40,704 bases of DNA from Candidatus Poseidoniaceae archaeon (GCA_030750665.1 JASMHR010000006.1:1-40704), one strand, 5' to 3'. Shown: positions 2,715-10,529, counted from the first letter of the stretch. Notes: generated from the letters alone by a model not told the origin. Translations and numbers: made by a program.

Positions 2715-2757
2715 AAATCCAAATAGCGTTTGATTGAAAACTGATGAAGTTCCCCGT

Positions 2758-3351
2758 ATGCTCATGTCGAAGCCTATCGTACTGCTGCTTAGTTCACTGT
2801 TGATTCTATGTTTCAGTAGCATGGTGTCTGCTACCGGAGGAGTTGATGTTGAGCCAGAGATTGAATCTTCTCCAATCTCAAATATCACCCATTCAACAGG
2901 AGTTGCAGATGAATCATCGTGGAGTATTTCAGTTTCTCTTGAAGAGTCTGCAGTAAACAACAGTACCAGTGTTCGCATCCTCAAGCAGATGTGCACCAAT
3001 GAAGGGGTATGTTATGCACCAGAGTGGATTGAAGCGGAATCATCATCTGACAATCAGACATGGTCTACATCTTGGCAAACCATCAGTGACCACGCATATG
3101 TGAATTGGCGAGTAGCATTGGATTATGAGGATGGTGAATCTGAAGAGTATCCCTCAGAGGGATATGCCAAAGCTTGGAGTTCATGTTGGCACGATATTGA
3201 TTCAGATGAATGGGGGGGCAAGGACTGCCCTGATGGTCCATCGAATGATGAGAAATCAGCAGTTGACGATTCAGGTTTTCTTCCAGCCCTGAGTATGTTG
3301 GCTGCGATTGCGATGATAACTGCAGCAGCAGTGTCACGTGGTTCAAAGTGA
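2758..3351 (+). CDS. Small secreted protein with C-terminal membrane anchor
   Basis: The function is not recognised. The protein (about 197 aa) has an N-terminal signal peptide (KPIVLLLSSLLILCFSSMVSA), an extracytoplasmic part with several N-x-S/T sequons and four Cys likely to form disulfides, and a C-terminal hydrophobic segment (FLPALSMLAAIAMITAAAV) ending in a short basic tail. That layout resembles archaeal tail-anchored or sortase-processed surface proteins. Starts at 2758 or 2764 are equally good; a TTG at 2734 is in frame but less likely. Its 3' end overlaps the convergent gene at 3343 by nine bases. Confidence 0.7.
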   Translation: MLMSKPIVLLLSSLLILCFSSMVSATGGVDVEPEIESSPISNITHSTGVADESSWSISVSLEESAVNNSTSVRILKQMCTNEGVCYAPEWIEAESSSDNQTWSTSWQTISDHAYVNWRVALDYEDGESEEYPSEGYAKAWSSCWHDIDSDEWGGKDCPDGPSNDEKSAVDDSGFLPALSMLAAIAMITAAAVSRGSK

Positions 3352-3732
3352 AGCGTGTTCTGACAGCCGGTCCAATAACCTGCGAACTTCGACACCCCAG
3401 GCGGTGATAATTACGCTGGCAGAACTTCTGTCATCAGACAACTCACCCTTTTCAAATCCCGGCATGGCCAGATCTGAAGGCACCAGTGGCAAGGCATTCT
3501 CAGCATTTATTTCCAGAAGCACTCCATTTTCAACAACTTTGATTTTGAGTTCTTCGGGTATATTGTCATCCATATGTCTCCTCATTGCAGCATGGAGTTC
3601 TTGTGGCTCGGTAGTGAGCAGAGAACCCTCTATATGTTCTCCAGATGCTTCCCCATAAGCCGAAAGGAATGGCAGGTCGACATCATTGTCGTCTAACAAG
3701 TCATCCAGACCGCGCCCCAGTTTCCTCGCCAT
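3343..3732 (-). CDS. Unknown 129-aa protein with ParB-like N-terminal peptide
   Basis: The N-terminus reads MARKLGRGLDDLLDD. This is strikingly like the start of bacterial ParB/Spo0J proteins (LGRGLxALL), the short peptide whose Arg stimulates the ParA/Soj ATPase. The rest of the protein does not look like ParB: there is no ParB/sulfiredoxin CTP-binding domain and no helix-turn-helix KorB domain. It is an acidic, soluble-looking sequence ending in VEVRRLLDRLSEHASL. The gene starts nine bases after the SAP membrane-protein gene and is probably cotranscribed with it. A ParA-type partner is inference from 10-12 residues only; an unrelated conserved protein remains possible. Confidence 0.7.
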   Translation of the reverse strand: MARKLGRGLDDLLDDNDVDLPFLSAYGEASGEHIEGSLLTTEPQELHAAMRRHMDDNIPEELKIKVVENGVLLEINAENALPLVPSDLAMPGFEKGELSDDRSSASVIITAWGVEVRRLLDRLSEHASL

Positions 3733-3741
3733 TCATAACCC

Positions 3742-5889
3742 TCAGTCGCTGGAACGTATATGAGACCAGCCGACCATCCCACCATCGCTAGCATCTGCTA
3801 CGAAAGAGAATGAATGAGACCAATCACCGTCTTCCCAAGTCCGCACTCCATCGATTGTCACTCTACCCGCATCATTGAGAGGCAGGAAATCAAGTGTTGA
3901 AGGCAATTCTACACCCGTTGTTGCCACTAGGACCCCGAGCCTCATGTCACTTCTCCATTCACCGTTTACGGCAGCCATCCCTGTAGTCCCACTGAATTCC
4001 GGAAAGGCCTCGCCATTCAACCATCTTGCAGTTTCCATCCAACCAAGAGATGGCGTCTCGGGGATAGCATTTCGGTTATGATCAGGTGCTTCATCACCAT
4101 GTCCTCCAGAATCGAGATACGTACAATTTCCTTCACTTCCGCCAGTTCCCGAAACGTCGAACTTTACCCAGCCGCTGGTGTCATCACTTGCTAACCAGCT
4201 GAGGTTCCACTCCGTCACTCCAGCATCTGAGCGATTATCACGCGCTCTCCAAATGTATGCATCATACTCTTTCAAAGCATCTTCTGCTGCACCACCATCG
4301 CCGTCATCTGAGGTATTTCCAACACAACTGACAGCCATCTCCAAAGTCTGACTGCGTGTAGTGGATGCGTCGGGCATATGCCTGTCAAGATGCCAATCCT
4401 GCATCTCTGATGAAGGGGGTCTTGTCGAAGAGATATCTGGTTTGGAATCATATGAATATCCAAGATCCACTAGATGTTCTCCGCGTTTGAGATTGGTCTT
4501 CTCTATTGTCATCTTCATCTCCAATCGTCCATCAGGCATCGCATAGTCGCCCAAGATCTCTTGCAATGTCCCGCAATCACTCGAATCTTCTCCAGTAATC
4601 AACAGGTCTGTGGATTGACTTACTGCCCAAGGAGAGGATGGAGTTGCAAGGATGTGGATTGTTGCATGGCCTAAGCAATTCTCTTCCAAATCTTTGTTTC
4701 TGAAGAGGATTTTCCATGCAGTCTCTTCACCAAATTCTTCACTTCCAGTAACTTGCCAGGACCAGCCTGAAACATTACCTGCCGCATTTTCATCGATCAT
4801 CGTATTCCCAAGCACTTCATGGATCTGCAATGGAGCAAAGGTCATCGAAGCACCAAGTCCAACCGAATCCAATGAATCCAAGAAACCACCCAACCCAAAG
4901 GTCGTGATGTCTCCTTGCAGATGCCCATCAGGATGTGTCAACCCATAGCCAAATTCGGAGCGAATACTTTTCTCACTGCTGAGTTCAATCCATTCAGTCC
5001 AGTCGATATCCACCTTTGCATTCACCGCAGGCATCTCTATACATCCCAGCTGGCTTGATTTCTCACTTTGAGATATCTGCACGTCATTGAGGTCATACAA
5101 CAACTCCTTTTCCATCGTCAACCAAGAATATCCATTCTCCCCCACCTGACTGACTGAACCCAACCTGTCATCATTCATTTCTCCAGAGATATCAGCAACG
5201 CCTCCTTCAGATACTGTGATGCTTCCACTACCTGCAAATGCAATATTCAATGCACACACATCTTCTTCTGAACCGAACCACTCGAAAACTTTGGAAGCGT
5301 AATCCTCGGTGGCTACGAGCCTTCCTCCTGTTACCGCGAATTCCATTCTATCTCCATGTCGTAGCGGGTCTGGTGTGAATGGCTCAGCCTCGAGACTGAA
5401 CCACCACCATGCTCCTGCACCGAGAAGCACGAGAGTCAATATCAGCGCTCCGCTCATCCTCCAATCGAACACGGACTCTTCTAATCTGCTACTGGCACTG
5501 GAGACAATGGCACGTTCTGATGAATCCTTCCGAGCCTTTTCTTTGATATCAGCAGTTATCACATCCGCTTCAATCACGTCGTCATCAATCATTTCTGCTT
5601 CGTACACTTCTGCTTCCAGAATCTCCTCTTCATCCTCTTCTGTTTCGGTTTCTGCCTCAACAGCGCCATCCTCGTCGTCTTCAAGGAGTAACAATCCTTC
5701 TTCATCTTCCACGATGTCATCTTCTTCAGGAGTTTCTTCAGCCAATGGCTGTAGTCCTACTTCTTTTCTACTGGCCCCATATTTCAGTAGTCGATTCACA
5801 AGTTCAGCCTTTTTTCCTGATAGAGACAATTCCTTCTCTTTGCATAACGCCTTCAGAGCGGCAACGGTCAACGTCGAGTTGGCTGTCAT
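3742..5889 (-). CDS. SAP-domain single-pass membrane protein
   Basis: The 715-aa product begins with a SAP domain (about residues 7-38: LTVAALKALCKEKEL, then a Gly-Lys-Lys and AELVNRLLKYG). SAP is a two-helix motif usually binding DNA or RNA. A very acidic Glu/Asp-rich linker follows (about 52-118), then one transmembrane helix (about 145-165, GALILTLVLLGAGAWWW), then some 550 residues with Cys and N-x-S/T sequons that would lie outside the cell. Topology is predicted N-in. I do not recognise the outer domain. ATG 5889 is chosen because the SAP domain starts just after it; the open frame runs 23 codons further up. The ParB-peptide gene follows directly downstream. Tethering nucleic acid to the membrane is inference. 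Confidence 0.8.
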   Translation of the reverse strand: MTANSTLTVAALKALCKEKELSLSGKKAELVNRLLKYGASRKEVGLQPLAEETPEEDDIVEDEEGLLLLEDDEDGAVEAETETEEDEEEILEAEVYEAEMIDDDVIEADVITADIKEKARKDSSERAIVSSASSRLEESVFDWRMSGALILTLVLLGAGAWWWFSLEAEPFTPDPLRHGDRMEFAVTGGRLVATEDYASKVFEWFGSEEDVCALNIAFAGSGSITVSEGGVADISGEMNDDRLGSVSQVGENGYSWLTMEKELLYDLNDVQISQSEKSSQLGCIEMPAVNAKVDIDWTEWIELSSEKSIRSEFGYGLTHPDGHLQGDITTFGLGGFLDSLDSVGLGASMTFAPLQIHEVLGNTMIDENAAGNVSGWSWQVTGSEEFGEETAWKILFRNKDLEENCLGHATIHILATPSSPWAVSQSTDLLITGEDSSDCGTLQEILGDYAMPDGRLEMKMTIEKTNLKRGEHLVDLGYSYDSKPDISSTRPPSSEMQDWHLDRHMPDASTTRSQTLEMAVSCVGNTSDDGDGGAAEDALKEYDAYIWRARDNRSDAGVTEWNLSWLASDDTSGWVKFDVSGTGGSEGNCTYLDSGGHGDEAPDHNRNAIPETPSLGWMETARWLNGEAFPEFSGTTGMAAVNGEWRSDMRLGVLVATTGVELPSTLDFLPLNDAGRVTIDGVRTWEDGDWSHSFSFVADASDGGMVGWSHIRSSD

Positions 5890-5985
5890 CTTCTGACCTG
5901 TGATATTAAGGCGCCACTGTGACCCTTTGAAGGCTCGCTCGATAAGAACATGCAACAAGGGGGTTGGATGGTCGTTTCACGTACT

Positions 5986-7089
5986 TCAACCTGAGAATGG
6001 CACATAAGTGCCATCGTGTTGCTTGACGTATGGTTGAGGATCAAAGGTGTTGTCATCTTTGAGGATGTAGTAGTATCCATCTCCAGACTCAATGTAATTC
6101 AGTGTGCTAATCGGAGCGCTGGCAGGTGGCATTTGTTGTGCTGGTGCTGGCTGAGCCGGCGCAGGTGATGGTTGTGCCGAAAGGGCGGCATACGCATCCT
6201 CTATTGGTGCCCCATCTGCGGTTGGAGGTCCTCCTGGGCCTGCAGTGATGATGGCTTGTGCGGTCTCTTCCATGACTTCCTCTTCAATACTTATTGAACC
6301 ACGACGAATAGAAGTTCTTTCTTTGAGGATCTTGCCTTTGCGTTGAGCACCAATGAAGCCGAAGATGGCCCATAACAATGAGATTCCCCCCAAGCCTCCG
6401 CCTATCTCTCTCAAACCGTAGACTGAAGCAGTGACCTCCAATGATTCCAAGGGTTGTCCAACACCTTCGTATTCTACCACGAGGCAATAACTCCCGGGAT
6501 CGAGTTTGAATTCCATTTCGTAAGTCTCCCCAGGGGTAGAATCGACATAGAGTCGATGAGTGCTGTCAAACGATTCGTCTCTGGCAACCGCCGCTTCAAA
6601 TTCAATCAATTCATCTGTGATGGTGTTGGTTCCACAGTGTGCTTCAATCACGTGTGCATGAAAGGTCCCTCCGGTTTTGGGTACTACTTCAACCACCAAT
6701 CTCACATCAGTGGAATCTCTTCCATCGATTGGCATTCCGAATAGATATGGCAACTCCTGATGCAATATCCCTCCATCAACATCGTCTGTCAACACGGTTT
6801 CATCATCCCAAGGAGCGGGAACTGGTAATGGAATCAATGCAAATGCGAACATCATCGCTGCAATTCCAAGATACATGAAAACATTCCATCGTGCTTTCTT
6901 GACTATTGAGCGCAATTCTCCGGTATTGAGTTCAGATTCATGCTCCCTTTCTGCTTGATCCATGGCCGCAGCACCCGGAGGTGGCCCGCCCGGGCCAGCC
7001 GCTCCAGGTCGTGAAGCAGGAGGGGGCCCCCCAGGCCCATCAGTTGGTCCCCAAGCGGGCGGCATGGCCCCTCGGAGAGCAGACTTCAT
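5986..7089 (-). CDS. Pro/Gly-rich two-TM membrane protein, unknown
   Basis: The function is not recognised. In the 367-aa protein, residues 1-45 are Pro/Gly/Ala-rich (repeated GPGGPPP). A first membrane helix lies at about 69-89, followed by an extracytoplasmic domain of some 135 residues with a likely beta fold. A second helix lies in the GGISLLWAIFGFIGAQ region, then a cytoplasmic tail with a Pro/Ala linker. The C-terminal 35 residues are rich in Tyr and Asp (GDGYYYILKDDNTFDPQPY), like a small repeat or binding module. ATG 7089 gives MKSALRGAM; an in-frame ATG at 7107 is possible. It lies 96 bp upstream of the SAP membrane gene on the same strand and may share its transcript. Confidence 0.75.
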   Translation of the reverse strand: MKSALRGAMPPAWGPTDGPGGPPPASRPGAAGPGGPPPGAAAMDQAEREHESELNTGELRSIVKKARWNVFMYLGIAAMMFAFALIPLPVPAPWDDETVLTDDVDGGILHQELPYLFGMPIDGRDSTDVRLVVEVVPKTGGTFHAHVIEAHCGTNTITDELIEFEAAVARDESFDSTHRLYVDSTPGETYEMEFKLDPGSYCLVVEYEGVGQPLESLEVTASVYGLREIGGGLGGISLLWAIFGFIGAQRKGKILKERTSIRRGSISIEEEVMEETAQAIITAGPGGPPTADGAPIEDAYAALSAQPSPAPAQPAPAQQMPPASAPISTLNYIESGDGYYYILKDDNTFDPQPYVKQHDGTYVPFSG

Positions 7090-7186
7090 CTTGAAAGGCG
7101 CGTACAATCAAATCTCTCGACTATTCAAGATGAATGGCGATTTCTTTGCATTCATTTGAAATGGGAGGGGTGTGCGGTTTGCATCG

Positions 7187-9845: not shown

Positions 9846-10424
9846 TCAATTCTGGTTTTTCTTCACACGGTCTAAAATGTCTTGAAGACTAGGAGTCTTG
9901 AGTTTCTCTCGCTCATTAGGAGGAGATTCTTTTTTCGCTGAGGATTTCTTTGCAGTAGTCTTTTTCGCGGGGGATTTCTTTGCAGCAGCCTTTTTCGCAG
10001 CCGGCTTCTTCTTGGCTGGAGTCTTCTTTGCAGTTGATTTTTTCTTTGCCTGGGGCTTCTTTGCAGCGGCCTTTTTTGGAGCCGCTTTCTTTTCTTTAGA
10101 AACGGCGGGAGTTGTGGTGGCAATCTTCTTTGCTCTTTTAGTTGCAGCCGCTTTCTTTGCAGTGTCCTTTCTTTTTGCTGCCGCCGTCGCTCTTTTCTTG
10201 GTCGCAGCCGCTTTCTTCTTCTCTGCTGCTGCATTCGCTTCTTCTGCAGCGGCTTTCTTTGCCGCAGCATTCTTTCTTCTGGTTTCAGCGCCTTTCTTAG
10301 CAGCAGCCTTTCTTTTGCGTGCGGCTGCTTCTTCTGCTTTCTTCTTTGCCGCAGCGTTCTTTTTACGAGTCTCTGCTGCCTTCTTAGCAGCAGCAGATTT
10401 GTCGGCTGATTTCTTTGCGCCCAT
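9846..10424 (-). CDS. Histone H1-like Lys/Ala-rich protein
   Basis: The 192-aa product is built almost wholly of AAKK, PAKK and AKKS-type repeats, like the C-terminal domain of eukaryotic linker histones and bacterial H1-like proteins, which bind and condense DNA through charge. There is no globular winged-helix domain. Only the last 20 residues (TPSLQDILDRVKKNQN) differ: non-repetitive and predicted helical, possibly a contact site. The open frame extends upstream to 10481, but ATG 10424 (MGAKKSADKS) matches the composition. An AT-rich box 34-42 bases upstream fits a promoter. A Cys-motif gene follows on the same strand. DNA compaction is inferred; RNA or ribosome binding is possible too. 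Confidence 0.8.
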   Translation of the reverse strand: MGAKKSADKSAAAKKAAETRKKNAAAKKKAEEAAARKRKAAAKKGAETRRKNAAAKKAAAEEANAAAEKKKAAATKKRATAAAKRKDTAKKAAATKRAKKIATTTPAVSKEKKAAPKKAAAKKPQAKKKSTAKKTPAKKKPAAKKAAAKKSPAKKTTAKKSSAKKESPPNEREKLKTPSLQDILDRVKKNQN

Positions 10425-10457
10425 CAATACACCGGTGACGACGTAAAGGCCCGCGGA

Positions 10458-10466
10458 TTTGAATAT
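10458..10466 (-). promoter_or_regulatory. Candidate TATA box for the H1-like gene
   Basis: On the minus strand this reads ATATTCAAA, 34-42 bases before ATG 10424. That distance fits an archaeal TATA box driving a transcript with almost no leader. Flanking sequence is GC-rich, so the AT tract stands out. No BRE was confirmed. Confidence 0.35.
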
Positions 10467-10529
10467 GGCCCTAAGAATCAAATTTCATTTAGGCACAAGC
10501 ATCATGAATATCATCAATGTCCTTGGGAT

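Follow-up and report, generated by a model that had tools for sequence, protein, structure and literature searches.

The window, the whole 40,704-nucleotide stretch analyzed here, is a single contig from the genome of a Poseidoniales archaeon, which measures 1.7 Mb and is 71% complete. Two adjacent open reading frames, both starting with ATG, were confirmed on its minus strand: 3343–3732 (129 aa) and 3742–5889 (715 aa), separated by a gap of 9 bases (3733–3741), as the sequence-only reading had described them. Gene starts were picked by rule and may be wrong by a few codons; for the longer gene, a TTG at 5958 is a possible alternative start. The longer gene encodes a membrane protein with a SAP domain (the SAP protein), and the shorter one, which we named ADP, encodes a small peptide-bearing protein referred to below as the adaptor. 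The order S8e, FAA hydrolase, PUA protein, small membrane protein, adaptor, SAP protein, proline-rich membrane protein, RimK and XerA is largely kept in about 40 loci. The sample comprised 146 genomes from 22 genera of the order Poseidoniales, and a phylum-wide profile search covered 390 genomes. We label the window's own family, Poseidoniaceae, f1, the Thalassarchaeaceae f2, and the window's genus g1. Since the sampled genomes are mostly metagenome-assembled and incomplete, completeness limits the calls of absence.

Several other genes of the window were noted. The gene at 5986–7107 (minus strand) immediately precedes the SAP gene, in the same orientation, in most relatives and possibly belongs to the same operon; its proline-rich product has two apparent membrane segments and no Pfam or NCBIfam match. 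A convergent gene at 2734–3351 (plus strand) encodes a small, conserved exported protein, whose C-terminus, a hydrophobic segment with a basic tail (for example, SSGLPGFTMLATISVLGMMAIAVRRLNN in relatives), resembles a PGF-CTERM archaeosortase signal. At 9846–10481 (minus strand) lies a gene for an AAKK-repeat protein, rich in lysine and alanine and similar to a histone H1 tail.

The SAP domain of the 715-aa protein (residues 5–37; 5779–5877) scores above the Pfam cut-off (PF02037, E = 3.9e-9). Its core residues T8, V9, A10, L12, G25, K27, L30, R33 and L35 are invariant in a 32-sequence alignment, and the model places two helices at residues 9–18 and 27–36. The segment is basic (pI 9.7), consistent with predicted binding of DNA or RNA. 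A disordered acidic linker follows (residues 50–142; 5464–5742; pLDDT below 50; pI 4.05 for residues 41–142), then a transmembrane segment at about residues 143–166 (5392–5463; modelled helix 143–161) and a beta-rich ectodomain (residues 167–715; 3745–5391), all on the minus strand. Kyte-Doolittle windows above 1.6 start solely at residues 146–148, leaving one hydrophobic segment, near 146–166; the single-pass protein with a SAP domain and a large outer domain that had been proposed is thus borne out. Cysteines occur at positions 16, 212, 283, 405, 439, 522 and 589, and the six in the ectodomain are invariant in the 32 sequences. Together with a basic residue before the membrane segment, they suggest that the SAP domain lies on the cytoplasmic side. 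Fold comparison did not assign the ectodomain a function, yielding generic beta-barrel matches only (TM about 0.25 or less).

Nearly every genome of the order has a full-length relative of the SAP protein; outside the order, the matches listed included no more than one weak one. The gene adjoins the adaptor gene or a ParA gene (ParA1, below) everywhere except in most of g2, where it has moved off by a few kb, behind two other genes, or by about 100 kb (genome G002). A locus scan had suggested that g2 lost the gene altogether, and a genome-wide search ruled this out by showing relocation. The expected synteny of the pair stood in all sampled adaptor-bearing genera apart from most of g2, where the SAP gene is kept without being adjacent. 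In part of g2, the position upstream of the adaptor that the SAP gene takes in other genera is occupied by genes for large exported proteins, which have fasciclin-like repeats and end in a cupredoxin-like part (L049 9961–12869, minus; L064 5787–7994, plus; L067 9008–12097, minus; L071 5571–7532, plus). Many Poseidoniales genomes also encode a second SAP-domain protein, a short one in frames of about 205–264 aa, for example at G104:C48:3599-3841 and G008:C51:24787-25032.

Homologues of the adaptor gene (3343–3732, minus strand) occur in 83 of the 146 genomes of the order, and the profile search of the phylum gave none outside Poseidoniales among the matches listed. In the predicted structure, residues 1–38 have low model confidence and are predicted to be disordered. 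Residues 40–129 (3346–3615) form an acidic domain (pI 4.7) modelled with high confidence (pLDDT about 90–96) as a helix, two strands, a short helix, two strands and a helix, with no confident fold match in the PDB. A disordered peptide joined to a well-folded domain fits the expectation for an adaptor with a free tag. We also considered the adaptor as a degenerate ParB and rejected this, as sequence searches of Pfam, NCBIfam and the PDB gave no match and the fold search of the PDB gave nothing better than E = 0.04.

The protein starts with MARKLGRGLDDLLDD (first residues, MARKLGRGLDDLLDDNDVDLPFLSAYG), and its disordered N-terminus reads MARKLGRGLDDLL. In M. xanthus ParB, L11, L15, L18 and I19 are each required for ParA binding, and R13 is required for ATPase stimulation (PMC12462528). 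Residues 5–13 of the window protein (LGRGLDDLL; 3694–3720, minus strand) match this motif at all key positions, L5-G-R7-G-L9-D-D-L12-L13 having all five of the residues L11-R13-L15-L18-I19; the small protein does begin with the ParB-type LGRGL(D) peptide noticed earlier. Given the composition, a genome should contain about 0.1 N-terminal LG[RK]GL motifs by chance, and one such protein on its own would not be decisive. The motif recurs in adaptor orthologues of both families, however, and its repeated occurrence in different genera rules chance out. Within the first 27 codons, the adaptor of the window and that of its g1 congener L173 differ by 16 synonymous and 0 nonsynonymous substitutions; for two congeners, the synonymous counts are 7 and 16, with 0 nonsynonymous differences in either. 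Judged from these counts, the peptide is under purifying selection in the window's genus, and the ParA-type motif is apparently still in use there. A second N-terminal motif, DLPFLSAYG (residues 19–27; 3652–3678, minus strand), is conserved as well, with L20, F22, L23, Y26 and G27 invariant in 65 sequences, genera without ParA1 included.

Elsewhere in the phylum, the search for LGRGL carriers gave a few weak matches, and those inspected were mostly frames overlapping unrelated genes. A 236-aa HTH-like protein of another family (L337 1404–2114, plus strand; start MQKRGLGRALEDALQG), whose gene adjoins that of a KaiC-like ATPase, looks real but has LGRAL only, near the ParA-binding motif without matching it, and was rejected as a carrier.

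In 15 of the 22 sampled genera, a gene for a Soj-like ParA, ParA1, directly follows the SAP gene. These are every sampled f2 genus and g6, g7, g9 and g11 of f1; the adaptor or an EamA transporter comes next. In eight of them (g6, g7, g9, g11, g15, g17, g19 and g22), ParA1 separates the SAP gene from the adaptor, at the site of the 9-base junction of the window (3733–3741, minus strand). The product, about 310–340 aa long, is a Soj-type ParA (PF13614, AAA_31; 6.2e-53) to which, among solved structures, Thermus Soj (1.1e-54) and chain 8ray (1.7e-52) are closest; the residue numbering of 8ray identifies it as the M. xanthus ParA of PMC12462528. Across 60 ParA1 sequences, K36, D58, D60 and N64 are invariant, and the position of the DNA-binding R238 is occupied by R or K. 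ParA1 has every catalytic residue, and the marks of the Soj class (deviant Walker A, motif 2, DNA-binding residue) are present in the relatives, not in the window. The ParB-pocket positions are hydrophobic at 4 of 6; compared with ParB-binding ParAs, ParA1 differs at V116 (Q/E/D), Y81 (R/K) and L187 (E, which Thermus Soj also has).

An EamA transporter (PF00892, 7.6e-23) replaces the adaptor after ParA1 in the f2 genera g13, g14, g16, g20 and g21, and the LGRGL peptide is fused to its N-terminus (for example, MASRGLGRGLEDVSHLAEDGPDLSSF). Because about 26 genomes in these five Thalassarchaeaceae genera carry the fusion, it is not an assembly error. When a profile of the 29-residue N-terminus was run over the 146 genomes, every significant carrier was an adaptor or this EamA protein. 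In g12, g18 and parts of g13, ParA1 and the EamA protein were present and no peptide carrier was found. The N-termini of EamA/DMT transporters face the cytoplasm. As the tag sits on a membrane protein, the EamA form is the strongest hint of membrane-side cargo. The suspected link to a ParA is strongly supported by a ParA gene that stands between the two genes in relatives and a peptide that is kept there, even on an unrelated transporter beside the same ParA.

ParA1 is absent from g1, g2, g3, g4, g5, g8 and g10. A tree of neighboring genes, some nodes of which are weakly supported, implies 4 (Fitch) to 6 (losses only) loss events. None of the six g1 genomes (57–83% complete) has ParA1, the locus being intact where readable, and the chance of this result from incompleteness alone is near 3e-4. 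Of the 23 adaptors with ParA1, 20 have the start of the motif (hydrophobic residue-G/S-R/K, assigned by hand), against 10 of the 64 without it. Relatedness inflates the Fisher value of 1.4e-9; counted by genus, p = 0.13. The LGRGL peptide was expected in orthologues; it does recur in both families, but several Poseidoniaceae genera have no complete LGRGL, and most of these also have no ParA in the operon, g9 and parts of g6 being the exceptions with a partly altered motif although ParA1 is present. Conversely, g1 keeps the complete motif without ParA1. In g2–g5, which have no ParA1, four motif residues, R, L, L and M/I, are still conserved, and R-x-L-D-H-L-[MI]-E-Q-N is conserved in genera without ParA1. 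Plain erosion of the motif after ParA1 loss had to be softened as an account, given that R-x-L-x-x-L-[MI] persists in g2–g5. The exceptions (g1, g6, g9, g2–g5) suggest that the peptide region serves something besides ParA1.

A second ParA, ParA2, was detected in almost every genome of the order; in the window's genome, its gene lies on another contig (L102 7887–9459, G000:C79). Its ParB-pocket is hydrophobic at 6 of 6 mapped positions. Further copies lie at L113–L119, L157 and L158, and the protein has KGGCAKTT with an insert. The gene is followed by those for an 80–90-aa ribbon-helix-helix-like protein (a likeness judged by eye) and an 85–90-aa conserved protein, and in the window's own genome MoxR and IF2 precede it. 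The ParA2 locus is likely a SegAB-like chromosome segregation locus of Poseidoniales. ParA2 is also the only other Soj-class ParA found in g1. Since ParA1 is gone there and the peptide is under selection, the peptide of the window's genus most likely engages ParA2 as its partner.

Taken together, we consider it probable that the locus encodes a ParA positioning module, in which the peptide is a portable tag and the cargo is membrane associated. Engagement of a ParA by the peptide, argued from motif and gene order, is the firmest part of this reading and highly likely; for the cargo to be the SAP protein or some other protein of the membrane seems a little short of an even bet. The sequences themselves show the order of the genes, the identity of the motif, its selection, the domains and the catalytic residues of ParA1, from which binding, ATPase stimulation, cargo, DNA contact and the change of partner are inferred. 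The ancestral module would have had three genes, for the SAP membrane protein, the ParA1 ATPase and the peptide adaptor, and the pair in the window would be its remnant. ATP-bound ParA1 dimers would coat the nucleoid and be bound, and perhaps stimulated, by the peptide. The folded domain of the adaptor, or in some relatives the peptide-bearing transporter, would provide the link to cargo at the membrane, of which the SAP protein is most likely a part. In this way, nucleoid-bound ParA would spread out or hold in place the membrane cargo with respect to the DNA, which the SAP domain would also contact directly. With ParA1 gone from the window's genus, the selected peptide would act there most likely on ParA2.

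Several observations weaken this reading. The peptide is kept in the window and its genus although ParA1 is missing there, no carrier was found in g12 and g18, which have ParA1, and g6 and g9 have an altered motif beside ParA1. The association between motif and ParA1 is weak when genera are the units, and ParA1 departs from ParB-binding ParAs at the three positions given above.

Chromosome segregation, with the SAP protein, ParA1 and the adaptor as a partition system without ParB and the membrane SAP protein as a centromere-side anchor, is unlikely. The closeness of ParA1 to chromosomal Soj and the DNA-binding type of the SAP domain would suit it, as would the failure to find a canonical chromosomal ParB in the order, where the PF02195 cut-off was passed in 5 of the 146 genomes, always in frames of 139–218 aa; this last point also favors the positioning module. 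But repeated loss shows that ParA1 is dispensable, and ParA2 with its ribbon-helix-helix-like neighbor, present in nearly all genomes, is a better SegAB analogue; this makes segregation the less likely role. The adaptor, moreover, is acidic and has no DNA-binding domain. The window's genus might instead retain a static tether between DNA and membrane that has no motor, with the SAP domain holding DNA, the adaptor serving as a regulatory subunit and the role of a ParA lost along with ParA1. All six g1 genomes are without ParA1 and the two genes are still adjacent, as such a tether would have it, but the lack of nonsynonymous change in the peptide makes it quite improbable. Similarly improbable, finally, is a helix LGRGLDDL that binds a partner other than a ParA (for example, the linker of the SAP protein or another conserved partner) and resembles ParB by convergence, for although the motif remnants and the invariant DLPFLSAYG in genera without ParA1, and the complete motif of g1, are in keeping with it, coincidence can hardly account for a complete ParB motif, adjacency to ParA1 in two families and the presence of the peptide on a protein of another kind next to that ParA.

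The positioning module would make the locus a concrete three-part system in an abundant marine archaeal group. It also offers an evolutionary natural experiment, with repeated loss of the ParA, retention or change of the peptide and its transfer to a transporter, and the tag is short and testable. Should the ParB-type peptide prove functional on its multi-pass transporter, ParA systems would be able to act directly on membrane proteins. A broader and rather doubtful proposal is that a Poseidoniales ParA motor organizes membrane proteins, with the nucleoid as a track or anchored to them; the ParB peptide would be an exchangeable tag, carried by a soluble adaptor for the DNA-contacting SAP protein or by a transporter, and a second ParA would take the tag over once the dedicated one was lost.

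Little is known about the roles of ParA-class ATPases in archaea (PMC10241942), and the open-licence literature searched held no paper on a ParA or SAP-membrane system of Poseidoniales. Compared with the chromosomal ParABS system (ParA/Soj and ParB/Spo0J; M. xanthus, PMC12462528), the locus has in common a Soj-like ParA1 and a disordered adaptor peptide with the full ParB motif, L-x-R/K-x-L-x-x-L-[IL]. An adjacent parA is found in the eight genera that have ParA1 beside an adaptor, not in the window or its genus. The differences are larger: the adaptor, at 129 aa, is too short for a ParB/Srx CTPase domain (PF02195) and has no Pfam match to one; neither the family search nor the model gave a central HTH; a SAP membrane protein belongs to the cluster; and the peptide also occurs on a transporter. 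With the CTPase and HTH domains missing, the adaptor is not a ParB. SegAB of Sulfolobales (PMC12284271) and ParA-ParB-AspA of pNOB8 (PMC7333895) are likewise archaeal and have a ParA-class ATPase, but their partners bind DNA (SegB, AspA, and ParB with a histone-like domain) and the adaptor does not; it is acidic and has the helix and strand order given above in place of a ribbon-helix-helix domain. SegAB fits the separate ParA2 locus better than the adaptor locus. The window protein belongs with the SAP family PF02037 by its score, its retained core residues and its two-helix core, but here the SAP domain forms the cytoplasmic end of a membrane protein whose ectodomain is large, an architecture of which no description was found in the papers searched.

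The closest parallels are PpfA-TlpT of Rhodobacter chemotaxis clusters, with a ParB analogue that modulates the ATPase through its N-terminus (PMC7333895), and further ParA/MinD adaptor systems, whose partners engage the ATPase through a charged, disordered N-terminus (PMC10241942). As in these, a ParA-class ATPase is combined with a partner that is not a ParB, has a ParB-like N-terminus and leaves its remainder for cargo; the adaptor has a free, positively charged, disordered N-terminus and a separate domain with a predicted cargo role. The Poseidoniales locus differs in being archaeal, in having a SAP membrane protein as constant neighbor, in an adaptor family without known relatives outside the order and, in one lineage, in carrying the tag on a multi-pass transporter. 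These features point to an undescribed ParA system acting at the cell membrane, and the best reading is a variant of the ParA/adaptor systems seen only in Poseidoniales.
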